A DNA stretch of 8,942 nucleotides from Deltaproteobacteria bacterium (GTDB lineage Bacteria; Desulfobacterota; Desulfobulbia; Desulfobulbales; Desulfocapsaceae), in the NCBI GenBank assembly GCA_021779275.1, contig JAJYAX010000041.1, positions 1-8,942 on the forward strand, given 5' to 3'. Below, in pieces: positions 268 through 8,942 of this stretch. A model generated the notes under the pieces. The model saw only the letters and a program-made list of their open reading frames with translations, was not told the origin of the DNA and did no database searches. The stretch's first letter is position 1, and each line of letters opens with the position of its first letter. The translations under genes and the position numbers were made by a program.

Positions 268-936
268 CTATTGCCAGGCCCAGAAGGGCTGTTCAAAGTG
301 GGCGACGCGGATTGTTCTGCCGAGGATGGCCACCTCGCGGAATTGATAAATCATTGCGGCGGTGGGAGAGGCTATGCTGTCCTTGCCTATGGGCATGAGC
401 AAAACAGGATTGTCACTGCCGGGCATTTCCTTGAGTATCGGCGCATCCACACGAAGAAATTCCGCCAGTGGAATGCGGTGAATCGATTCGACCTCCGCCT
501 GGTTGGGAATGAGGTGCAGGCCGGTTCCTCCCCAGACTACTACCGGACTGATGATGAACCCGGAATGGGTGATATAATCGTCCAGCCTTCCTATAACCCG
601 GTCTGCATCAAGCCTCAACCCAACCTCTTCCTCAAGCTCACGCAGGGCCGTCTCTTCCGGAGTTTCACCTGCGTCCATACTTCCTCCGGGGAGGGCCCAC
701 TGGCCGGCGTGTCTCCTGAGTCGGAATGCCCGCCTGGTCAGGATGAGAGCCGCGTCACTGCTCAAGGCGTTGTCGTAGGAGCCGTCATGTATGTCTGTGG
801 CGTGATCAATATCCACAATTGTGATGGCGACAGCCGCCCTTCTTAGATTTTTCTGCTCCAGAGGCAGAGCTGTGAATATATCCAGGTTGTTTCTTATATG
901 GCGTAATAAATTCTCGTCACATCGCAAATTTTTCAT
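268..936 (-). CDS. Nudix hydrolase, CoA-pyrophosphatase-like
   Basis: This 222-residue protein carries a complete Nudix box (GX5EX7REUXEEXGU) at residues 85-107: G85, E91, R99, E100, E103, E104, G106. The glutamates bind the metal that hydrolyses a nucleoside diphosphate linked to another group. Just before the box, LTRRAFRLRRHAGQWALPGG (residues 66-85) resembles the extra motif of CoA and acyl-CoA diphosphatases (NudL/PCD1 type), so CoA or a derivative is the likeliest substrate; this is inferred, not proven. No signal peptide or membrane segment is seen, so it should be cytoplasmic. The ATG at 936-934 has only a weak GGA upstream and lies 10 bases after the stop of the small gene before it, suggesting translational coupling. 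The N-terminal 30 residues are helical and lie outside the Nudix fold. An open frame on the opposite strand at 271-846 is its shadow. Confidence 0.88.
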   Translation of the reverse strand: MKNLRCDENLLRHIRNNLDIFTALPLEQKNLRRAAVAITIVDIDHATDIHDGSYDNALSSDAALILTRRAFRLRRHAGQWALPGGSMDAGETPEETALRELEEEVGLRLDADRVIGRLDDYITHSGFIISPVVVWGGTGLHLIPNQAEVESIHRIPLAEFLRVDAPILKEMPGSDNPVLLMPIGKDSIASPTAAMIYQFREVAILGRTIRVAHFEQPFWAWQ

Positions 937-946
937 AAGTCCAAAT

Positions 947-1120
947 TCAGAAATCCATTATTTTTTCTATCCGCAGGATTTCCTGTTCAATCTCGGATCG
1001 TTCATTGTCGGAAAGCCCGACCTGGGTGAGGCGTTTTTTTAATCCTGCCAGAATCATCTCTTCCCTGTATTCCTTGCAGGTGTAGGAATTGGCCTTCGCA
1101 TTGTTTATTGGGTCCACCAT
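947..1120 (-). CDS. Small conserved-looking hypothetical protein, 57 aa
   Basis: ATG at 1120-1118 opens a 57-residue frame ending in TGA at 947-949. The protein starts MVDPINNAKANSYTCKEYRE, continues with EMILAGLKKRL, and ends in a charged segment, about residues 39-55, predicted to be one amphipathic helix. It is soluble, with one cysteine (C15) and no signal peptide. An AAGGAG motif lies upstream with spacing of about 12 bases, somewhat long but convincing. The stop is 10 bases before the Nudix start, so the two are probably one transcript. Support for a real gene is the ribosome binding site, tight packing with the next gene, and protein-like composition. I do not recognise a named family; the CKEYREEMIL pattern feels familiar from short hypothetical proteins of sulfate reducers, but I cannot confirm this. 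Function unknown. Confidence 0.65.
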   Translation of the reverse strand: MVDPINNAKANSYTCKEYREEMILAGLKKRLTQVGLSDNERSEIEQEILRIEKIMDF

Positions 1121-1636
1121 ACGTGTTTATCTCTCCTTAACAGAGTAATCAAGCAAAAATGAGAGCATCCGGCTCATAAGAGGAAAAACCATGCAAAAAT
1201 GCAGCTGAAGAGTTCTTTTTTGCAATATATACATCTTAGAGAGTTTTTTCTCTTGAAGCGATGACATAGTTTGATGTACTGATTACAGTAGCAAATAATT
1301 TGGTATAAAAATATTTCTTGATTATCTTTATCACTTAAGAGGATAATACTTTTAAGGTAATGTCATGAAGGGTCTTTACAGATCCATATCCATTCTTGTC
1401 TTTTATTATAATCCGCTTCTGTCAATGGTGGATGGTGTGTTTTAGTTTGCGCAGCAGGTTTCCGGGAGATTGGGTAAGGACAAGGAAATCAGGATGAAAG
1501 TGTGAAGTGGCTGGTTTTTATCAGGAAAGGAAACTCGGAGAGTTTTCAGGAAGGGTACTCTAGCCGATTTGGGGATGCAGGATGTGAGATGTTGTTTATA
1601 GAGAAAAATGCAAAAATCAACAAGGAGGAAAAGAAG
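1121..1636. other. AT-rich divergent intergenic region and long ompA leader
   Basis: No convincing gene lies here. The stretch separates the leftward small gene (start 1120) from the rightward OmpA gene (start 1637) and should hold promoters for both. It is clearly more AT-rich than the flanking genes. A 26-codon open frame at 1365-1445 (MKGLYRSISILVFYYNPLLS...) begins 7 bases after AAGG and lies just downstream of the predicted promoter; it might be a leader peptide, but nothing else supports it. Small hairpins occur at 1159-1177 (ATGAG/CTCAT) and near 1236-1254 (AGAGA/TCTCT). If the promoter at 1318-1347 is used, the untranslated leader is about 280 bases, long enough for post-transcriptional control. 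No known riboswitch was recognised. Confidence 0.6.
1318..1347 (+). promoter_or_regulatory. Candidate sigma-70 promoter for the OmpA-type gene
   Basis: A -35 like hexamer TTGATT (1318-1323) and a -10 like hexamer GATAAT (1342-1347) are separated by 18 bases within AT-rich DNA. They match the consensus at four and five of six positions. Transcription would begin near 1354. No other pair in the gap with good spacing was as strong on this strand, but promoters called by eye in AT-rich DNA are often wrong. Confidence 0.45.
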
Positions 1637-2524
1637 ATGAAAAAAGTGATGATTGTAGCGGGATGCATGGCGATGACATTTGCTTTAAGTACCATGTCGT
1701 TCGGGATTGAATTATCCACACAGCAGGCCGATACGCTTAAGGGCAGTGTCAGTGGTGTCTACGTAACGGAGGTAAAAGGTGGAAAGGTCATCTATACAGA
1801 TAAAGCTACCGCCTATCGTCCGGCTGAATGGGATACCATCCTGAAGGCCTATGGCTTGACTTTATCTGATAGTAAAGATCTGCCAAGGGGGTATGCAACA
1901 ACCACGAGTGGCAAAACCACATTTTCTGAGCAGGCTACTGCTTTTAGCCCCATTCAGTATGATGAAATTTTCAGAGCCTATGGTCTGCAGCTTGATGCCG
2001 CCTGTATTCAGAAAACCATCAATGCCTTCGGCTATGCCACGGCTGTAAGCAGCGATGGAAAGGTGACCCTGGGTGATAAGGCCACGGCATTCACGGGCAT
2101 GGAGTATGCGTCTATCCTGTACTGTTATAACCTGCCTGCCAAGAAGAAAGTTGTTGAGAAAAAGGTGGAGCCTGAGCATACCGGTTGGGTTATGGCCTCA
2201 GACTATCTCTTTGATTTCGATAAGTCCGTGATCAAAAAGAAATATTATAGCAAACTGGATGAGATTGCCATCCAAATTAAAAAGGATCCGAAGCTGAGAG
2301 TTGAGATTCAGGGACATACCGACGGCGTAGGTACGGAAAAATACAACATGGGACTTTCCCTGAGACGCGCCAATGCCGTGAGAAATTATTTCATCAAGAA
2401 GAGTGGGATTGCCGCCAACCGTCTGACCGCAGTCGGCTTTGGCAAGACAAGACCAATTGCAACTAATGAAACAGCGGAAGGCCGTGCCCAGAACCGGAGA
2501 GTGGAGTTGAAACCCATTAAATAA
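1637..2524 (+). CDS. OmpA-family outer-membrane/peptidoglycan-linked protein with triplicated module
   Basis: The start is ATG at 1637, 8 bases after a strong AAGGAGG; the frame is open further upstream, but only this start gives a signal peptide at the N-terminus. The product has 295 residues. Residues 1-23 are a Sec signal peptide (MKK, hydrophobic core, likely cleavage after SFG). A Cys at 10 lies too near the N-terminus for a credible lipobox. Residues 49-166 hold three copies of a 26-residue motif ending AYGL, AYGL or CYNL. A Lys-rich linker (169-178) leads to an OmpA C-terminal domain (about 188-295) with FDFDKS, the HTDG motif at 227-230, and the NRRVE ending. This domain binds peptidoglycan in the periplasm. 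No beta-barrel is evident, so the N-terminal part may be periplasmic or bind a partner. It is probably transcribed alone. Confidence 0.88.
   Translation: MKKVMIVAGCMAMTFALSTMSFGIELSTQQADTLKGSVSGVYVTEVKGGKVIYTDKATAYRPAEWDTILKAYGLTLSDSKDLPRGYATTTSGKTTFSEQATAFSPIQYDEIFRAYGLQLDAACIQKTINAFGYATAVSSDGKVTLGDKATAFTGMEYASILYCYNLPAKKKVVEKKVEPEHTGWVMASDYLFDFDKSVIKKKYYSKLDEIAIQIKKDPKLRVEIQGHTDGVGTEKYNMGLSLRRANAVRNYFIKKSGIAANRLTAVGFGKTRPIATNETAEGRAQNRRVELKPIK
1781..2134 (+). repeat. Three in-gene repeats in the OmpA-type protein
   Basis: Three diverged protein repeats are encoded at residues 49-74, 92-117 and 141-166. Each reads GK, two to three residues, a short polar stretch, ATA(Y/F), four to five residues, an aromatic or acidic pair, (I)L or IF, then AYGL or CYNL. 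The spacing between unit starts is 43 and 49 residues, and units 2 and 3 are preceded by GYAT. The similarity is at protein level; the DNA copies have diverged, so the expansion is old. Confidence 0.75.
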
Positions 2525-2543
2525 ACCGGGAACGCAAGAAATA

Positions 2544-2584
2544 CCTTCTTGATGCGTTGGGCTGAGATGAATGCATCAAGAAGG
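2544..2584 (+). terminator. 12-bp inverted repeat after the OmpA-type gene, possible terminator
   Basis: CCTTCTTGATGC (2544-2555) and GCATCAAGAAGG (2573-2584) are perfect complements around a 17-base loop, starting 20 bases after the OmpA stop. A second, overlapping hairpin (AAGGG 2581-2585 with CCCTT 2592-2596, then TTAC) shares bases with the right arm, so the two cannot form together. The T-tract after the first stem is missing, so it is not a textbook intrinsic terminator. It may stop or attenuate transcription into the nitroreductase gene, or protect the 3' end of the OmpA mRNA. Confidence 0.5.
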
Positions 2585-2669
2585 GGATGGTCCCTTTTAC
2601 CAGGGAGACAGTCGCGAATGGATTCTGATTCCGATGTTTCTCTGGTTTTTTTTTGCTGGAGTGAAGATC

Positions 2670-3212
2670 ATGCAATCACTTGATGAAATAATCAGAGAGA
2701 GAAGAAGCATCAGAAGGTTTGAGAAGCGGGACGTGGAACTGGAGAAGGTGACGGCATTGCTTGAAGCGGCAAGATGGGCTCCCTCGTGGGGCAATAGTCA
2801 ATGCTGGCATTTTATTGTCATTCAGGACCAGGAACAGAAAGAGAGACTCGCAGAGACATTATCAAAGAAAAATCCTGCTACACTCACTGTCCGGGATGCT
2901 CCCGTCGTTTTGGCTGTTTGCGGTGAGTCAAAGAAATCAGGCTACTATGGCGGTCAACAGATTACACGATACCATGACTGGTTGATGTATGACCTTGGCC
3001 TGGCCACCCAGAACATCTGTCTTACCGCCCACAGCCTGGGGCTTGGCTCGGTCATTGTCGGATCATTTGACCATGAGCTGGCCGAGAAGGTGCTTGGTGT
3101 TCCTCAAGGGTATGAGGTCGTATCCTTGTTGCCTCTGGGGTATCCTGACCATGCACCCTCAGCTCCCAAAAGAAAAGAGAGTGCATCCTTCGTCCATTAC
3201 GGATGTTTCTAA
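2670..3212 (+). CDS. Nitroreductase-family FMN-dependent oxidoreductase
   Basis: The start at 2670 (MQSLDEIIRERRSIRRFEKR) is chosen because GGAGTG lies 6 bases upstream and the family N-terminus begins here; an upstream in-frame ATG at 2571 falls inside the inverted repeat after the previous gene. The 180-residue product has the usual family length. RERRSIRRF (residues 9-17) is the phosphate-binding arm for FMN, AARWAPSWGNSQCWHF (33-48) is the second conserved block, and the C-terminal GLGSVIVGSF...LGVP...LLPLGYPD block (about 123-160) completes the fold. Such enzymes are cytoplasmic dimers that move electrons from NAD(P)H to nitro compounds, quinones or flavins; the substrate here cannot be told. 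Immediate neighbours give no pathway hint, and the gene converges with metF. Confidence 0.88.
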   Translation: MQSLDEIIRERRSIRRFEKRDVELEKVTALLEAARWAPSWGNSQCWHFIVIQDQEQKERLAETLSKKNPATLTVRDAPVVLAVCGESKKSGYYGGQQITRYHDWLMYDLGLATQNICLTAHSLGLGSVIVGSFDHELAEKVLGVPQGYEVVSLLPLGYPDHAPSAPKRKESASFVHYGCF

Positions 3213-3299
3213 GAAGGCAGTCTCCTGCTTGACGTTTTTCTGCATGTTGAGCATCAGGAAAGCGGTCGTTTTCACGGATCTGTCTGAGCGCGGGGTCTT

Positions 3300-3342
3300 G
3301 TTCTCAAACCGGCCCGGTTTGAGAACACCGGGCCGGTTTGAG
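3300..3342. terminator. Overlapping GC-rich hairpins between convergent genes
   Basis: Two perfect, mutually exclusive hairpins overlap here. Hairpin A pairs GTTCTCAAACCG (3300-3311) with CGGTTTGAGAAC (3315-3326) around a 3-base loop. Hairpin B pairs 15 bases, CTCAAACCGGCCCGG (3303-3317) with CCGGGCCGGTTTGAG (3328-3342), around a 10-base loop. The element sits between the ends of the nitroreductase and metF genes, where a bidirectional terminator is expected. There is no clear T-tract on either side, so it could instead be a dispersed palindromic repeat (REP-like) or an mRNA 3'-end stabiliser. A further imperfect palindrome lies next to it at 3343-3356. Confidence 0.65.
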
Positions 3343-3364
3343 TCGAACATGTTTGAAATATCTG

Positions 3365-4309
3365 TCAGTCAAATACCGGGCGAGGAAGCACCTTAGCCTG
3401 AGCTGCGATCTCGGGTACTTTGTGCTCCCATTCGATGGCCATCAGATGCACGCCATGTACGCCCTTCATTCCTTTGAACTCTTCGATCTGTTCGCAGGCG
3501 ATATTGATACCTTCCTGGGCGACCTTATTTTTCTCGACGCCCTGCAGGCGCTTGATGATCTCGTCGGGGACATCCATGCCCGGCACCTTGTTTTTCATAT
3601 ACTTGGCCATACCCACGCTTTTCATCGGGGTTACTCCGGCCAGGATATGAATTTTGTCAGTCAGCCCCTCTTCATTGGCAAGCCGGATGAATTCCCGGAA
3701 CTTCTCCATATTGTAGATACACTGAGTCTGAATGAAATCGGCGCCCGCTTCGATCTTTTTCGCCAGGCGATGCACCCGCCATTCAAAGGGGTCGGCGAAG
3801 GGGTTGCTGGCGGCGCCGATGAAAAGTTTCGGAGACCCGTGCAGATCTCCGCCGCTTAAGAATGTCCTCTCGTCCCGCATCTGTTTGACCATGGATATCA
3901 ACTGTATGGAGTCGATGTCGAAGACGCCTTTGGCATCGGGGTGATCTCCGAATTTCTGGTGGTCTCCGGACAGACAGAGCATGTTGCGAATACCGAGTGC
4001 GGAGCTGCCCAAAATATCGGCCTGCATGGCCAGGCGGTTTCGATCCCGGCAGACCATCTGATAGTTGGGCTCAAGTCCTTCCTGGACCAGAATTAAGGAT
4101 GCCGCCCAGCTGGCCATTCTGACCATGGCGGTCTGATTATCGGTAATATTGACCGAGTCGACATTTCCCTTGAGGAATTGGGCCTTCTCTCTCACCTCAT
4201 TAACATTTGTTCCTCGTGGAGGGCCCAGCTCACCTGTAAAAGCAAATTGACCCGATGCGAGGATCTTTTCCAGGTTGCTTCCAGATTTATATGTTGTTTC
4301 TGTGCTCAT
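3365..4309 (-). CDS. metF: Methylene-tetrahydrofolate reductase, catalytic flavoprotein subunit
   Basis: This 314-residue protein matches the MetF TIM barrel. It interconverts 5,10-methylene- and 5-methyl-tetrahydrofolate using FAD, the last folate step before methyl transfer in the Wood-Ljungdahl methyl branch. Visible motifs are FTGELGPPRG (residues 24-33, E27 matching the catalytic Glu), the CRDRNR block (87-92), LSGD (113-116, flavin contact), KKIEAGADFIQTQ (184-196), and a C-terminal GVHLMAI (286-292). It lacks the regulatory domain of eukaryotic enzymes. The start has AGGGGA upstream at good spacing. It is the last gene of the operon, 67 bases after metV. With MetV and the Hdr proteins before it, it should receive or donate electrons through iron-sulfur clusters rather than directly from NADH, as in acetogen MetFV complexes. 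A biosynthetic role in methionine supply is possible but less likely here. Confidence 0.93.
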   Translation of the reverse strand: MSTETTYKSGSNLEKILASGQFAFTGELGPPRGTNVNEVREKAQFLKGNVDSVNITDNQTAMVRMASWAASLILVQEGLEPNYQMVCRDRNRLAMQADILGSSALGIRNMLCLSGDHQKFGDHPDAKGVFDIDSIQLISMVKQMRDERTFLSGGDLHGSPKLFIGAASNPFADPFEWRVHRLAKKIEAGADFIQTQCIYNMEKFREFIRLANEEGLTDKIHILAGVTPMKSVGMAKYMKNKVPGMDVPDEIIKRLQGVEKNKVAQEGINIACEQIEEFKGMKGVHGVHLMAIEWEHKVPEIAAQAKVLPRPVFD

Positions 4310-4376
4310 ATTTAATCCCCTGATCAGTATTGAGGGTATGTCTGAAAAATTGTTGGCATACGAGAGCGAAAGGCAA

Positions 4377-5060
4377 TTATTTCAATGAATTTTCAGGCTT
4401 TTTGTAGCCGGGTTGGACCAGATTTCTGGGTATTTGGTCATTCCATCCCCGGACGGCATTGAGCTTTTTGATGGAATCCAGGCGGTTCTGTCCTTTCAGG
4501 CGTTCGTAGATCATAAACCAGGCACAGGGCTGTTCATTACTTATCTCACAGCTTCCCTTATTGGTTCCACCGCAGGGACCGTTGAAAAGGCCCTTGGCGC
4601 ACATGGTGACCGGGCAAATCCCGCCGGTCATGCCCAGGACGCACTGGCTGCAGGAGCGGCAGCGCTCCTCATACCAGCCTACCGCCTGGTTGACGGCAAG
4701 GCCGGTTGTGTCGACAGCAGGAAAGGTCGGGATAAGGGGATATCTTTCCGCCAGAAACTGGATGCCAACGCCACAGGCCATGGACATCAACGCATCAAAA
4801 TTTCCCTCTTCGATGATACTGTCAAGCTCGGCCAGATACTCGCGATCACATTGACGTTCAATGGTGTGTCCTTGAATTTCAATGGGCTCTTTATCAAGCC
4901 TTCTCGTCATCTCGATTTCGGTGTTGAGAATGGTGACTTCCTTCTCACCACCGGCCAGACAGACAGAAACGCAGGTGCCGCATCCAACGTTCAACACTTT
5001 TTTATAGCCCTTTAACATGGCCTTAATTTCGGCAAAAGGCTTTCTTTTGGCAACTATCAT
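4377..5060 (-). CDS. metV: MetV, cysteine-rich partner subunit of methylene-tetrahydrofolate reductase
   Basis: The start is taken at 5060 (MIVAKRKPFAEIKAML) because GGAGG lies 5 bases upstream; a longer frame adds nine residues but contains that ribosome site. The 227-residue product matches the family called methylene-tetrahydrofolate reductase C-terminal domain protein, or MetV. It is rich in cysteine: CGTCVSVC at residues 27-34, C71, C96, then CRSCSQC (134-140) with C149, C154, C163, C171 and C179, enough to bind iron-sulfur clusters and zinc. From work on acetogens, MetV forms a tight pair with MetF and passes electrons between the Hdr module and the MetF flavin. It lies 51 bases after the hdrC-hdrB fusion and 67 before metF. 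No signal peptide or membrane segment is present. Confidence 0.87.
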   Translation of the reverse strand: MIVAKRKPFAEIKAMLKGYKKVLNVGCGTCVSVCLAGGEKEVTILNTEIEMTRRLDKEPIEIQGHTIERQCDREYLAELDSIIEEGNFDALMSMACGVGIQFLAERYPLIPTFPAVDTTGLAVNQAVGWYEERCRSCSQCVLGMTGGICPVTMCAKGLFNGPCGGTNKGSCEISNEQPCAWFMIYERLKGQNRLDSIKKLNAVRGWNDQIPRNLVQPGYKKPENSLK

Positions 5061-5111
5061 AATTTCCTCCAAAACGGGCCGGGACATGGAGTGATCCGGC
5101 CCCAGAAAATG

Positions 5112-6410
5112 CTAGAGACCGACGTTCTGAAGATCCGGTCCGAGGTACACTCTTTCGTTTTCACCAAGCATGCCCATGGACAGGCAGATAAGTGTCCAGA
5201 GATGCACCGTATGCCACTTGCCGTTATAATGTTCCTTCAAATCATGGATTTGGGCGTGACAGTTATGACAGGGAGTGATCGCGTATGTTGCCCCGGTATT
5301 AATAATCTGTTCGGCCTTGAGGCGGCCATACTCTCGACGGGCATCGGGAAGTCCTGACTGGAGGAATCCGCCGCCGCCGCCGCAACAGTAGTTGTTTGAC
5401 ATATTGGGTGTCATGTCGATGAAGTTCTCTTCGCCGACCACCTTTTTGACAACATACCGAAGGTCTTCAGCCACGGGGTCACCGTAGGTTTTTCGGACAA
5501 GCTGACAAGGATCCTGAACGGTAAAGGTCACCTTGAGGTCTTTGTTCCAGTCGGAACTGACCGGAAGCCTTCCTTCACGGATCCATTTGGCATAGTATTG
5601 GATGATGCTGGCGATTTCAAACTTGTAAGGAATGTTGAATTTTTTCAGTCCGGCCCGGACTGCAAAGAGTTCGTGGCCTCACTCGGTGTTGAGCCAGACC
5701 TTGCAGCCCAGGTCATCGACGGCCTTTGCCTTGACCCTGACGATATGCTCCCATGCATCATTGTCAGCAAGAAACATACAGTAATTCTCAGCCGCCCATC
5801 CTTTTGAACCGTAGGTCCAGTCGGCTCCGACCTTGTTAAGGATTTTCCATAAGGGGATCATCTCGTCCGGCTCGGTGACCGGCTCCCTGGAGTTCTGATT
5901 CAGATAGAACTGAGCCCCATGCTTATTCATGGGCACCTGCAGATTCTCAAACCCCGGCTGGGTCTGCCGGACCTCTTCGGCCACATCCTCCACCACGAAG
6001 CGCCAATCTTCTTCCGTGGCGCCCATGGCGCTGCAGGTGTCATTGCGAAGCGCCATATCACAGGAGCCCAGGATCCCTTTCGGCCGTTTATCTCGCGGCC
6101 TGGCATTTCTTAGATTAAAGACCAGCTGGGGGATATCGATTTTCATCGGACACACATAATTGCATCGCATGCACATGGTGCACATCCAGGGCCAATCGGA
6201 TGCCAGCAACTCCTCATCCATGCCCAAAGCGGCCATTCTCAATAATTTTCTGGGGTCCATGTTTTCAAGACCGGTGGCCGGGCAACCGGAAGAGCAGGCC
6301 CCGCAGGTCAGACACATGTCAAGGTTCCCGCCCTCAGGCAGAAGCCCCTTGACCGTATCCATAAACCGGTTTTTCTTTTTGCCGCCAATTTTTATTGCTT
6401 CATCAGACAT
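5112..6410 (-). CDS. HdrC-HdrB fusion selenoprotein, UGA read as Sec244
   Basis: The frame runs from ATG at 6410 (GAGGAG upstream) to TAG at 5112-5114, 432 residues, with one internal TGA at 5679-5681. The N-terminal part is HdrC-like, with two 4Fe-4S motifs (C33/36/39/43 and C77/80/83/87). The C-terminal part is HdrB-like, with a CCG motif of C302, C342-C343, C381 and C384, which in HdrB binds a noncubane 4Fe-4S cluster. The TGA sits in NTE-stop-GHE, where relatives such as DsrK-type proteins carry ECGH from memory, so Sec replaces a likely cluster-binding Cys. Translation past TGA is clearly protein-like (GHELFAVRAGLKKFNIPYKF), the second half has no ribosome site, and a SECIS-like hairpin follows. 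A normal annotation would show a false 243-residue protein and a false 139-residue one. The role is probably electron transfer between HdrA and MetFV. Confidence 0.85.
5637..5678 (-). promoter_or_regulatory. Bacterial SECIS-like hairpin after UGA of the hdrC-hdrB fusion
   Basis: The TGA occupies 5679-5681. Sixteen bases after it, CAGTCCG (5662-5656) pairs perfectly with CGGACTG (5652-5646) around a GGC loop at 5655-5653. A lower stem adds three U-A pairs beyond one G-A mismatch, and a GAA/UUC pairing may close the base. The loop begins 23 bases after UGA, within the range known for bacterial SECIS elements, and has G in its first positions. SelB would bind this loop to bring Sec-tRNA to the ribosome. 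Confidence 0.75.
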
Positions 6411-6425
6411 AATGCACTCCTCTTC

Positions 6426-6857
6426 TTAGGCGCAGGGCCTTTTCGACATATCTTTCAAAGGGTTTGGTCCGAGTGACATGATATGCTCGGTCATTTCTTT
6501 GGCATATTTTTGGAAGGTGGGGCCCTCACCCGACGACAGGTTATACATCCTGACGCGGTCACCTTCGATACCGATTTCCTCCAAAAGCTCGTGGATGTGT
6601 TCGACCCGTTCCCGGCATCGAAGATTTCCCTGGTTGTAGTGACAGTTTCCCTCCAGGCAACCGACGCAATAGACCCCGTCGGCCCCTTCCTGGAAACAGC
6701 GTAACAGGTACATCACATCCACTTTTCCGGTGCAGGGAACCCGGATTATTTTAATAGTGGTGGGGTAGCTCAACCGCATCGAACCTGCCAGGTCCGCAGC
6801 AGAGTACCCTCAGTAATCACAGCAAAAGGCTATTATAGTTGGTTCGAAGTCTGCCAT
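6426..6857 (-). CDS. mvhD: MvhD selenoprotein, copy 2, UGA read as Sec16
   Basis: The start is ATG at 6857-6855 with AGGAGGG upstream. Codon 16 is TGA (6810-6812); the next in-frame ATG (6779) would delete the N-terminal cluster motif. The 143-residue product reads MADFEPTIIAFCCDY-Sec-GYSAADLAG, matching the family motif in which CxxC is followed by a Tyr and an Ala-Asp pair; Sec takes the place of the second Cys. C42, C54, C64, C67, C72 and C81 follow, including CVGCLEGNC. MvhD is a small 2Fe-2S protein that links an electron donor (hydrogenase or formate dehydrogenase) to HdrA. It lies 26 bases after copy 1 and 15 bases before the hdrC-hdrB fusion. Over the first 135 residues it differs from copy 1 at only six positions, while the last residues (DMSKRPCA) are unrelated. 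Confidence 0.88.
6763..6809 (-). promoter_or_regulatory. Bacterial SECIS-like hairpin in mvhD copy 2
   Basis: Directly after the TGA at 6810-6812, GGGUA pairs with UACCC at the base, then an eight-base segment pairs (one U-U mismatch, some G-U) with CGGUUGAG, then CGGACCU pairs with AGGUUCG around a GGC loop. The loop begins 20 bases after UGA. Compared with copy 1, base changes at the lower stem keep pairing (UAUCCC against UACCC, U-G against C-G), which suggests the fold itself is maintained. Confidence 0.78.
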
Positions 6858-6883
6858 TAATTTCCCTCCTGCACGATCCCGTA

Positions 6884-7321
6884 TTAGGAGACCGTTACGG
6901 CCGCTTTAGGTTTTGCCTTGAGAGGGTTGGGGCCGAGCGCCATGATATGCTCGGTCATCTCCTTGGCGTATTTCTGGAAGGTGGGGCCCTCACCCGACGA
7001 CAGGTTGTACATCCTGACGCGGTCACCTTCGATACCTATTTCCTCTAAAAGCTCGTGGACATAACCGACCCGTTCCCGGCATCGAAGATTTCCCTGGTTG
7101 TAGTGACAGTTTCCTTCCAGGCAACCGACGCAGTAGACACCGTCGGCCCCTTCCTGAAAGCATCGCAACAGGTACATCACATCCACTTTTCCGGTGCAGG
7201 GGACCCGGATGATTTTTATATTAGTGGGATAACTCAACCGCATCGAACCTGCCAGGTCCGCAGCTGAATACCCTCAGTAATCGCAGCAAAAGGCTACTAT
7301 AGTCGGTTCGAAGTCCGCCAT
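6884..7321 (-). CDS. mvhD: MvhD selenoprotein, copy 1, UGA read as Sec16
   Basis: ATG at 7321-7319 overlaps the hdrA stop in TGATG, and GGGAGGG lies 5 bases upstream, so translation is probably coupled to hdrA. Codon 16 is TGA (7274-7276), giving MADFEPTIVAFCCDY-Sec-GYSAADLAG. The product has 145 residues, the usual length for MvhD (delta subunit of methyl-viologen-reducing hydrogenase). The frame is unbroken up to TAA at 6884-6886. C13-x2-Sec16 replaces the CxxC thought to bind the 2Fe-2S cluster; further Cys are 42, 54, 64, 67, 72 and 81. From the family, it accepts electrons from a dehydrogenase or hydrogenase and passes them to HdrA. No hydrogenase subunit is visible, so the partner here may be formate dehydrogenase, NADH-type subunits, or something elsewhere. 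Starting at the next ATG (7243) would lose 26 conserved residues and is rejected. Confidence 0.9.
7226..7273 (-). promoter_or_regulatory. Bacterial SECIS-like hairpin in mvhD copy 1
   Basis: After the TGA at 7274-7276, GGGUA pairs with UAUCCC (one bulged U), UUCAGCUG pairs over its full length with CGGUUGAG (using G-U wobbles), a three-base AUG bulge follows on the 3' side, and CGGACCU pairs with AGGUUCG around the GGC loop at 7253-7251. About 20 pairs in all, with the loop beginning 20 bases after UGA. This position and the G in the loop fit known bacterial SECIS elements. Confidence 0.8.
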
Positions 7322-8942
7322 CACATCCCTCCCGCCAGCAATGTATCAATCGCACATGTGATCTGGTCATCTTCATAATTGTTGAGTTTAATGGTCTGTC
7401 GCGGGCAGACGCAGGCGCAGACGCCGCAACCCTGACAGAGAGCAGGGTCTATCTCAACCTCGCCTTTCTCCACATTGAACTGTGGAACCTCAAAGGGGCA
7501 GGAGCGAACGCAGGTCAGGCATTTCACGCAGTGATCCGGATCAACCTGCGCCTTAATGGCCGACAGCTTGATTTTATCCTTGGAGAGGAAGGTGACTGCC
7601 CGTGAGGCGGCGGCATTGGCCTGCACAATAGCCTCGGAGATCAGCTTCGGACCGTGCGCGGTCCCGCAGAGGAAGACACCTTCGCTGCCCATATCCACCG
7701 GCCGGAGTTTTACGTGGGCCTCAAGGAAGTAGCCCTCGGAATTTATATTGAGCTTCATCTTCCTGCTCACCTCTTCCGACCCGGCCGGCATGATGCCTGC
7801 GCTCAGGGTGAGAATGTCGGCGCGAATCTCGACGTTTCTCTGGAGGACATGGTCCTTGACGGTGACAAGAATACCCTCGTCCGAGGCCTTGGCCACGGGC
7901 GGGTTGTCCTTCTGGAAGCGGATAAAAATGACGCCCTGCTTTCTTGCCTCGGTGTAATAATCCTCCATAAGACCGTACATGCGCATATCCCGGTACAGGA
8001 TAAAGACCTGGGTGTCAGGGCTTTTCTTTTTTATCGCCAGGGCATTCTTCACGGCAGACTGGCAACAGATCCTGGAGCAGTTTGGTCGTTCCTCGTTTCT
8101 GGAGCCGACACATTGGATCATCACCACCGAGTCGAGTCCGGCCGCACCTTTTTCAGCCAGTCTGTCGCTCAGCTGGAGCTGGGTGATGACCCGGGCGTCC
8201 TCTCCGTAGAGGAATTCTTTCGGCTTGTATTCATCGGCGCCTGTGGCAATAATGACGACACCGTGCTCAAATTCCTGAGCGGCTTCATTGCCGTTTATCC
8301 TGACCGAGGTCTTGAAATTGCCCTGAAAACCCTCAAAACCGGCAACAGTCGCATTGGTCAGGACGGTAATTTTATCTTCCGTGCGAACCTGACCGATGAG
8401 TTTTTCCATGTAGGCCCTGGCGTCGGCTCCCTCCAGGGTATGATGAAGCCTTCGCGCCATACCGCCCAGCTGCTCCTGTTTTTCGACCAGGACCGATTCA
8501 AAGCCCTGCCGGGCCAGATCCAGAGCCGCATTCATGCCGGCGATGCCGCCTCCAAGAACGAGTGCTCTTTTGTTGACAGGGATGATTTTGCCTTTCAAGG
8601 GTTTTAGCCGCATGGCGCGGGCAACGGCCATCCGGACGAGATCCTTGGCCTTTCCCGTAGCAAGTTCGGGATTGAAGGCGTGGACCCAGGAATCTTGATT
8701 TCTGATATTGGCCATCTCAAAGAGATAGCGGTTCAGTCCGCAGGCCTCAAGGGTTTCCATGAACATCGGCGCATGGGTCTTCGGGCTGCAGGAGGCGACA
8801 ACGACCCGGTTGAGGCCTTGTTCAAGAATCTTGTCCTTGATCTTGCCCTGGGTATCCTGGCTGCAGGTGAAAAGATTGTTGTCGGTAAAGACCACACCGG
8901 GAAGAGTTCCGGCATATTCCTGCAGGCCGGGCACGTCTATGA
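7321..8942 (-). CDS. hdrA: Heterodisulfide reductase subunit A, 5' end outside window
   Basis: The frame enters from the right edge with no stop, so the start lies outside; 540 residues are visible of about 650 expected, and the GTG at 8934 is internal. HdrA carries the bifurcating FAD and several 4Fe-4S clusters. Visible parts: ACSPKTH-like segment (SCSPKTHAPMF, about 50-60), FAD-binding GGGIAGMNAAL (about 130-140) with EKQEQLGGMARR, the inserted-cluster ligands C277, C288, C292, C293 in the CVGSRNEERPNCSRICC region, and two C-terminal ferredoxin motifs, CVKCLTCVRSCP (from 471) and CQGCGVCACVCP (from 502). No in-frame UGA is seen in the visible part. The motif written from memory as ANIRxQCSWVH in methanogens reads ANIRNQDSWVH here. 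It overlaps mvhD copy 1 by one base and is the first visible gene of the operon. It should split or merge electrons between a donor via MvhD, ferredoxin, and the HdrCB-MetV-MetF branch. Confidence 0.93.
   Translation of the reverse strand, partial: IDVPGLQEYAGTLPGVVFTDNNLFTCSQDTQGKIKDKILEQGLNRVVVASCSPKTHAPMFMETLEACGLNRYLFEMANIRNQDSWVHAFNPELATGKAKDLVRMAVARAMRLKPLKGKIIPVNKRALVLGGGIAGMNAALDLARQGFESVLVEKQEQLGGMARRLHHTLEGADARAYMEKLIGQVRTEDKITVLTNATVAGFEGFQGNFKTSVRINGNEAAQEFEHGVVIIATGADEYKPKEFLYGEDARVITQLQLSDRLAEKGAAGLDSVVMIQCVGSRNEERPNCSRICCQSAVKNALAIKKKSPDTQVFILYRDMRMYGLMEDYYTEARKQGVIFIRFQKDNPPVAKASDEGILVTVKDHVLQRNVEIRADILTLSAGIMPAGSEEVSRKMKLNINSEGYFLEAHVKLRPVDMGSEGVFLCGTAHGPKLISEAIVQANAAASRAVTFLSKDKIKLSAIKAQVDPDHCVKCLTCVRSCPFEVPQFNVEKGEVEIDPALCQGCGVCACVCPRQTIKLNNYEDDQITCAIDTLLAGGM

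Follow-up and report, generated by a model that had tools for sequence, protein, structure and literature searches.

The window analysed here, 8942 bases in length, is the whole of contig C32 of a 63% complete draft genome (G000) whose host is probably a sulfate-reducing bacterium. Its minus strand carries an operon that runs from the C-terminal part of hdrA through two mvhD genes and hdrCB to metV and metF. We propose, from the gene sequences of the window and its relatives and with a probability of about 0.68, that HdrA, the two MvhD, HdrCB, MetV and MetF form a selenocysteine (Sec)-containing Hdr-type methylene-tetrahydrofolate (THF) reductase, in which flavin-based electron bifurcation would link NAD(P)H, ferredoxin and methylene-/methyl-THF.

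An operon with in-frame TGA codons

A first-pass annotation of this DNA had described an hdrA-mvhD-mvhD-hdrCB-metV-metF operon with three in-frame TGA codons, and all of these parts are present at that place on the minus strand (Table 1). Pfam backs each of the gene names, and the genes are separated by gaps of 15-67 bases, apart from one overlap in which the start of mvhD copy a shares one base with the hdrA stop. Because the window is a complete contig whose end cuts the gene, hdrA is incomplete. The in-frame TGA is residue 16 in each MvhD copy and residue 244 in HdrCB, and the same triplet doubles as a true stop in this operon, where both hdrA and metF end in TGA.

In the predicted model of HdrCB the HdrC fold corresponds to residues 5-113 and the HdrB fold to residues 166-431. 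The protein falls below every NCBIfam cut-off (HmcF, 165.7 against 750 bits; TmcB, 163 against 735; DsrK, 108.2 against 400), and with scores so far under the curated values we rejected its assignment as TmcB, HmcF or DsrK proper. A comparison of the MetV sequence with the PDB gave no match.

Table 1 Features of the window (plain coordinates) and of loci in other genomes (L numbers).
Feature	Coordinates	Strand	Remarks
hdrA (HdrL type), C-terminal 539 residues	7321 to beyond 8942	-	Open reading frame, Pfam, NCBIfam; truncated by contig end
mvhD copy a	6884-7321	-	Sec codon TGA 7274-7276; selenocysteine insertion sequence (SECIS)-like hairpin 7245-7259
mvhD copy b	6426-6857	-	Sec codon TGA 6810-6812; SECIS-like hairpin 6781-6795
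hdrCB (HdrC-HdrB fusion, 'GlpC'/UGH selenoprotein family)	5112-6410	-	Sec codon TGA 5679-5681; SECIS-like hairpin 5646-5662 (Sec codons and hairpins predicted)
metV (DUF5981)	4377-5060	-	ATG 5058-5060 preceded by GGAGG
metF (MTHFR)	3365-4309	-	True TGA stop at end
Two overlapping perfect inverted repeats, arms 14 and 16 nt	3299-3342	unassigned	Between convergent metF and nitroreductase genes
Thiol-peroxidase-like (Redoxin) gene	L193:7368-7904; L195:1114-1617		Upstream of Sec hdrA start in both same-genus relatives
Second tRNA-Sec-like genes, Cys anticodon GCA	L197:6438-6529; L198:7535-7628; L199:995-1088; L200:6971-7064		55-62 bits, cut-off 47

The TGA codons are predicted to encode selenocysteine

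We predict that the in-frame TGA codons of the operon are read as selenocysteine. That they are instead true stops or sequence errors, leaving broken genes, might be suspected of a single contig from so incomplete a draft, but this is extremely improbable: recurrence of the codon, fixation of its surroundings and hairpin pairing together rule it out. In a scan of named genomes the HdrCB codon was TGA in 80/80 loci from independent genomes; these were the 80 top-ranked of 405 relatives, the ranking being by similarity to Sec queries, so the figure does not show how common Sec is in the family as a whole. The same column is Cys in 47/47 aligned homologs, which were picked from 120 listed among 2593 found.

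Synonymous codons near the TGA are fixed as well. Among MvhD genes, the codons GAC, CTG, GCA and GGT at 6-9 positions after the TGA are kept in 42, 42, 42 and 41 of the 42 distinct TGA copies, respectively, whereas the 27 Cys copies keep them in only 8, 12, 5 and 7. For HdrA the codons AAA CTG GTC GAG GTC GGC are kept in 28/28 TGA copies; the lone Cys copy shares five of these six, which weakens the contrast for this gene. The HdrCB codons GTC CGG are kept in 82/82, a count that included no Cys copy for contrast. The hairpins are paired in 99.3% (MvhD), 97.1% (HdrA) and 98.3% (HdrCB) of cells, and after sliding by 1-3 positions pairing reaches at most 74.1%, 60.0% and 44.7%, respectively. The weak spot of the hairpin case is that two-sided pair changes were seen only in the HdrCB hairpin, in 2 cells. 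An Rfam scan of the window at E values up to 1 gave no match, SECIS included. Finally, the genome encodes a tRNA-Sec (74 bits, cut-off 47) and SelB (384 bits, cut-off 242).

Conservation of the gene order

Gene order was compared in a set of 58 genomes and in the 80 named-genome HdrCB loci, and the order HdrA-MvhD-HdrCB-MetV-MetF (A-D-CB-V-F) is conserved in Desulfobacterota. A close HdrCB (85% or more) occurs in 7/58 genomes, the window's included; every one of them has this order, and metV adjoins metF in all seven. The order is found in 22/80 named loci, among them those of the cultured Desulfoprunum benzoelyticum, Desulfopila aestuarii, Desulfosediminicola flagellatus and Desulfobulbus sp. 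Tol-SR. All 22 have TGA in HdrCB and in the MvhD adjacent to it, and the HdrA TGA is present in the 16/16 that reach the site. MetF stands ahead of HdrCB in 14 further loci of the 80, accompanied by MetV in 13 of them, and in 11 MvhD stands ahead of HdrCB with no metV after it, 4 of these having metVF farther upstream. On a quick HdrCB tree that included 12 of the 120 listed Cys homologs, the 24 rows with A-D-CB-V-F order need 7 changes, at least 5 of them forced by starred branches, and a single origin of the order on that tree was rejected.

Nine neighbouring proteins from six loci of this order were scanned with Pfam. They comprise one molybdopterin oxidoreductase (Desulfosediminicola, L086) and two thiol-peroxidase-like proteins (same-genus relatives G001 and G002), and no hydrogenase was found among the nine. 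The scan included a tenth protein, from L200, which belongs to a different place.

All genomes of the window's genus (3/3) have the tandem mvhD, which was absent from every other operon of A-D-CB-V-F order inspected; it is a genus-level duplication. Over the first 402 nt the two copies are most alike in G001 (95.3%), followed by the window (90.5%) and G002 (84.3%), and each G001 copy is 89-92% like the window's. The duplication looks recent or homogenised.

Full-length HdrA and the proposed electron path

In four relatives the hdrA frame, with TGA read through, extends over 1482-1498 residues, and the half that lies beyond the window holds a further TGA within TNDCAMU; in L039 one additional TGA occurs upstream of the likely start. 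Four stretches of these full-length proteins match HdrA, and residues 160-561 form a GltD/NfnB-like insertion of NAD(P)H type. This module lies outside the window and was seen in the four full-length relatives and partly in the same-genus G001. In an alignment with M. marburgensis HdrA the HdrA Sec falls on residue 205; provided that the offset found further along also applies at this point, it would correspond to residue 197 of 5odc_A, the Cys197 cluster-ligand position. Cys197 is described as the ligand that one HdrA donates to the N-terminal cluster of its partner HdrA, and the Moorella HdrA as two HdrA parts joined in one chain, which have lost Cys197 and the N-terminal domain in a complementary way (PMC9012536). 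At L088, L109, L112 and L136 we observed longer operons in which an extra HdrA and a Cys MvhD (37-41% identity) precede a GltD-less HdrA, Sec MvhD, HdrCB, MetV and MetF.

In the proposed mechanism the GltD-like part of HdrA would accept electrons from NAD(P)H. An HdrA flavin would split them between ferredoxin and a branch that reaches MetV and MetF by way of HdrCB, perhaps together with MvhD. Where a sulfate reducer uses the acetyl-CoA pathway to oxidise its substrate, the net flow would be reversed, with methyl-THF and reduced ferredoxin reducing NAD(P)+. Sec would occupy three points of the wire: in HdrA the Cys197 trans-ligand of a cluster, in MvhD the CxxU motif and in HdrCB the UGH site. 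An operon for a likely bifurcating Hdr-type methylene-THF reductase is what the first-pass annotation had put forward, and the analysis agrees with it: genes for HdrA, MvhD, HdrB and HdrC cluster with adjacent metV-metF, and three kinds of product carry Sec codons.

Other metV operons and a putative Cys twin

MetV was found in 54/58 genomes, with four copies each in G001, G002, G005, G015, G028 and G033. The metV operons are of several types. Type A is that of the window. Type B consists of a Sec HdrCB, a distant MetF, Cys versions of HdrA and MvhD, MetV and MetF (in G033 it is spread over two contigs), and type C of HdrC, HdrB, a Cys HdrA, a Sec MvhD, MetV and MetF. Type D, found in G005, G015, G028 and G033, has a Cys HdrA, an MvhD whose first site is Cys and whose second is TGA (VAG-U-LEGQC), MetV and MetF. 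The second-site TGA was seen in the type D MvhD of L166, L168, L173 and L175, and a non-standard residue in the solved VhuD chain 9sfi_K aligns with this site. In the four genomes with type D, none of the four metV operons is free of TGA at Sec-type sites. The earlier suggestion that the methyl branch of the Wood-Ljungdahl pathway depends on selenium is partly supported: it fits these four genomes, but in the window's own genus one metV operon is apparently Cys-only.

That operon is the fourth of G001 (C102) and G002 (C104), and consists of a Cys MvhD, MetV and MetF on contigs that begin inside hdrA. A Cys HdrCB followed by a Cys HdrA lies on G001:C39 and G002:C65, and the Sec start of hdrA lies on G001:C41 and G002:C71, behind a thiol-peroxidase-like gene. 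The simplest reading, and a likely one, is that each genome has one Sec operon and one Cys operon in which all three of these sites are Cys. The contigs alone may also allow the opposite pairing of the hdrA halves, against which weighs the observation that in G005, G015, G028 and G033 a Sec hdrA is never preceded by HdrCB. Within hdrA the contigs share their end points, which are residues 277 and 438 in G001 and 202 and 602 in G002, the two hdrA genes of each genome breaking at the same residues (C41/C39/C17/C102 and C71/C65/C106/C104, respectively). These breakpoints may mark a near-identical stretch common to the Sec and Cys copies, which is a guess because the DNA just past the breaks is only 84% (G001) and 70% (G002) alike; for the same figures we rejected gene conversion as a shown cause.

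The Cys operon of this genus is likely an isozyme for low selenium. Expression of the Vhu and Vhc hydrogenases is under selenium control. By analogy, the genus could run two whole bifurcating methylene-THF reductases, with Sec or Cys in HdrA, MvhD and HdrCB, switched by selenium, and the deltaproteobacterial HdrA-FrhD-GlpC selenoproteins could, where their operon ends in metVF, be the electron wire of the Wood-Ljungdahl methyl branch; we offer this combined proposal tentatively and consider it rather doubtful as a whole. CdhC, DsrA and FTHFS were found in G000 and six relatives, and FTHFS has a type C operon within about 5 kb in G005 and G033 and a type D operon within that distance in G015 and G028.

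Weighing the proposed function

Several observations count against the Hdr-type bifurcating reductase and its Sec/Cys pairing. The single complex and the bifurcation, although likely, are predictions from gene sequences, and MetVF of S. ovata does not co-purify with Hdr subunits (PMC9430772). NAD(P)H input is not universal, because the nearest HdrA is without the GltD-like insertion in 6 of the 22 A-D-CB-V-F loci (it is present in 11, and HdrA is cut in 5). HdrCB may serve other partners, since by the adjacency rule applied no HdrA, MvhD, MetV or MetF adjoins it in 33/80 loci, many of them on short contigs; among these, L098 has MetF directly after HdrCB and L134 has MetV 2.5 kb on. Furthermore, the type A operon adjoins no other Wood-Ljungdahl genes, FTHFS sitting by types C or D, and the Cys twin relies on contigs that end inside hdrA and on the join we infer between them.

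Part of this evidence would suit an arrangement in which MetVF acts by itself as a ferredoxin-dependent reductase, while HdrA, MvhD and HdrCB form an NAD(P)H/ferredoxin:disulfide complex of their own, with for example DsrC as the disulfide, that is only co-regulated with MetVF. The S. ovata MetVF indeed purifies and works alone with reduced ferredoxin (PMC9430772), HdrCB is apart from metVF in the 33 loci just mentioned and beside MvhD without downstream metV in the 11 described above, and the nearest curated models of HdrCB are HmcF, TmcB and DsrK, all far under their cut-offs. We nevertheless consider this quite unlikely, as the five genes stand together in 22/80 loci at several places of the HdrCB tree, and S. 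ovata pulldowns tie HdrA, HdrB and MvhD to MetF (PMC9430772). A MetF that is active without Hdr subunits, named by the first-pass annotation as a refutation, would be a weak one, because the S. ovata MetVF is active alone yet meets Hdr subunits in those pulldowns. It could also be supposed that the operon is one of several redundant dosage copies in which Sec has no special role and selenium exerts no control. The four metV operons in each of six genomes, the Sec subunit that differs by type and the apparently recent or homogenised MvhD duplication all speak for such redundancy. Against it, Sec is kept at all sites seen across the 22 A-D-CB-V-F operons, and the Cys twin, if the contigs are paired correctly, has Cys at all three sites and no mixture; redundancy is in our judgement unlikely.

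Relation to known systems

Hdr-type methylene-THF reductases are in print (PMC9430772, PMC5736913, PMC6895022). The HdrABC-MvhD-MetVF systems of Moorella thermoacetica and Sporomusa ovata likewise have metV-metF clustered with HdrA, MvhD, HdrB and HdrC modules (PMC9430772, PMC5736913), and the Moorella HdrA (1487 aa) is long with a GltD insertion, as is the full-length HdrA of the window's relatives; the window operon differs by its fused Sec HdrCB, two MvhD and another gene order. An HdrC-HdrB fusion linked to metVF, as here, is described in the hdrABC-mvhD-metVF operon of the marine Chloroflexi single-cell genome DscP3, whose Hdr and MvhD genes, unlike those of the window, carry no mention of Sec in the excerpt (PMC5736913). 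The glpC-hdrA-frhD-frhG-frhA operon of Syntrophobacter and Desulfotalea has the same three Sec families, HdrA, FrhD/MvhD and GlpC (UGH), but ends in hydrogenase genes where the window operon ends in metV-metF (PMC1794560, PMC13188914). Table 3 of PMC1794560 includes HdrA and FrhD of M. thermoacetica among the selenoproteins, with no statement in the excerpt on linkage to metVF. In Desulfobacterium autotrophicum, Sec occurs in HdrA, HdrL, HdrD4 and MvhD; its HdrL, of HdrA type with an NADH site and Sec, lies beside mvhD like the window system, and its HdrD is an HdrC-HdrB fusion, with Sec in hdrD4, but the excerpt places no Sec hdrD in a metVF operon (PMC2702500). In Seep-SRB1g HdrABC stands beside metF, and the word selenocysteine gave no hit in that paper (PMC10553843). 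The Vhu (Sec) and Vhc (Cys) hydrogenases of Methanococcus voltae (PMC2702500) are Sec and Cys versions of an Hdr-linked enzyme in one organism, whereas the pair proposed here is a methylene-THF reductase with an inferred join and conjectural selenium control.

In the excerpted open-access literature we found no description of a Sec-HdrCB version ending in metVF, or of a Sec/Cys pair of such a reductase. The fused HdrCB, doubled MvhD and Sec residues were earlier taken to make this version distinct. This holds for the Sec-HdrCB that ends in metVF, but the Sec families (PMC1794560, PMC13188914, PMC2702500) and the HdrC-HdrB fusion (PMC5736913) are in print and the doubled MvhD is a duplication within the genus. 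The clustering of HdrA, FrhD/MvhD and GlpC selenoproteins has been known since 2006, with the role of HdrA and GlpC left unclear there, and the present proposal provides a concrete candidate function for these clustered HdrA, FrhD/MvhD and GlpC-like HdrCB selenoproteins. If it is true, the flow of carbon along the acetyl-CoA pathway of sulfate reducers would be linked to the supply of selenium, and a natural Sec/Cys pair of one complex would make it possible to examine the effect of selenium at iron-sulfur positions of a bifurcating enzyme.

tRNA genes with a GCA anticodon and other features

Second tRNA-Sec-like genes with a Cys anticodon were found at four loci (Table 1). ARAGORN called three of them tRNA-Cys and missed that of L197, and they fit the published selC* tRNA-Cys (PMC7609411, excerpt). 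Their neighbours are Cys-coded members of the usual selenoprotein families (HdrCB, formate dehydrogenase-like, MvhD and HesB-like), and AIRS/TusA-type genes, which we read as selD and yedF, lie near these loci. Beside the GCA tRNA of L199, a TGC-bearing MvhD (4001-4333) retains a SECIS-like GCGGACCTCGCAGGTTC, and a formate dehydrogenase-like gene (1014-3950) has TGT followed by a hairpin of -20.7 kcal. Insertion of Sec or Cys at Cys codons by a SelB-type route is possible at this locus. At the HdrCB Cys codon beside GCA tRNAs there was no stable shared hairpin, and a SECIS there was rejected. In L198 an HdrCB gene with two in-frame TAG codons (7688-8922) lies beside the GCA tRNA and a selD-like gene.

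In the window, the inverted repeats between metF and the nitroreductase gene are a possible transcript end, although the terminator scan did not flag them. Promoter patterns (7 against 3.3 +/- 1.7) and terminator patterns (9 against 6.0 +/- 2.7) in the window were not clearly beyond chance. The rest of the contig encodes, according to Pfam, a NUDIX hydrolase (268-936, minus strand), an OmpA-family protein (1637-2524, plus strand) and a nitroreductase (2670-3212, plus strand).

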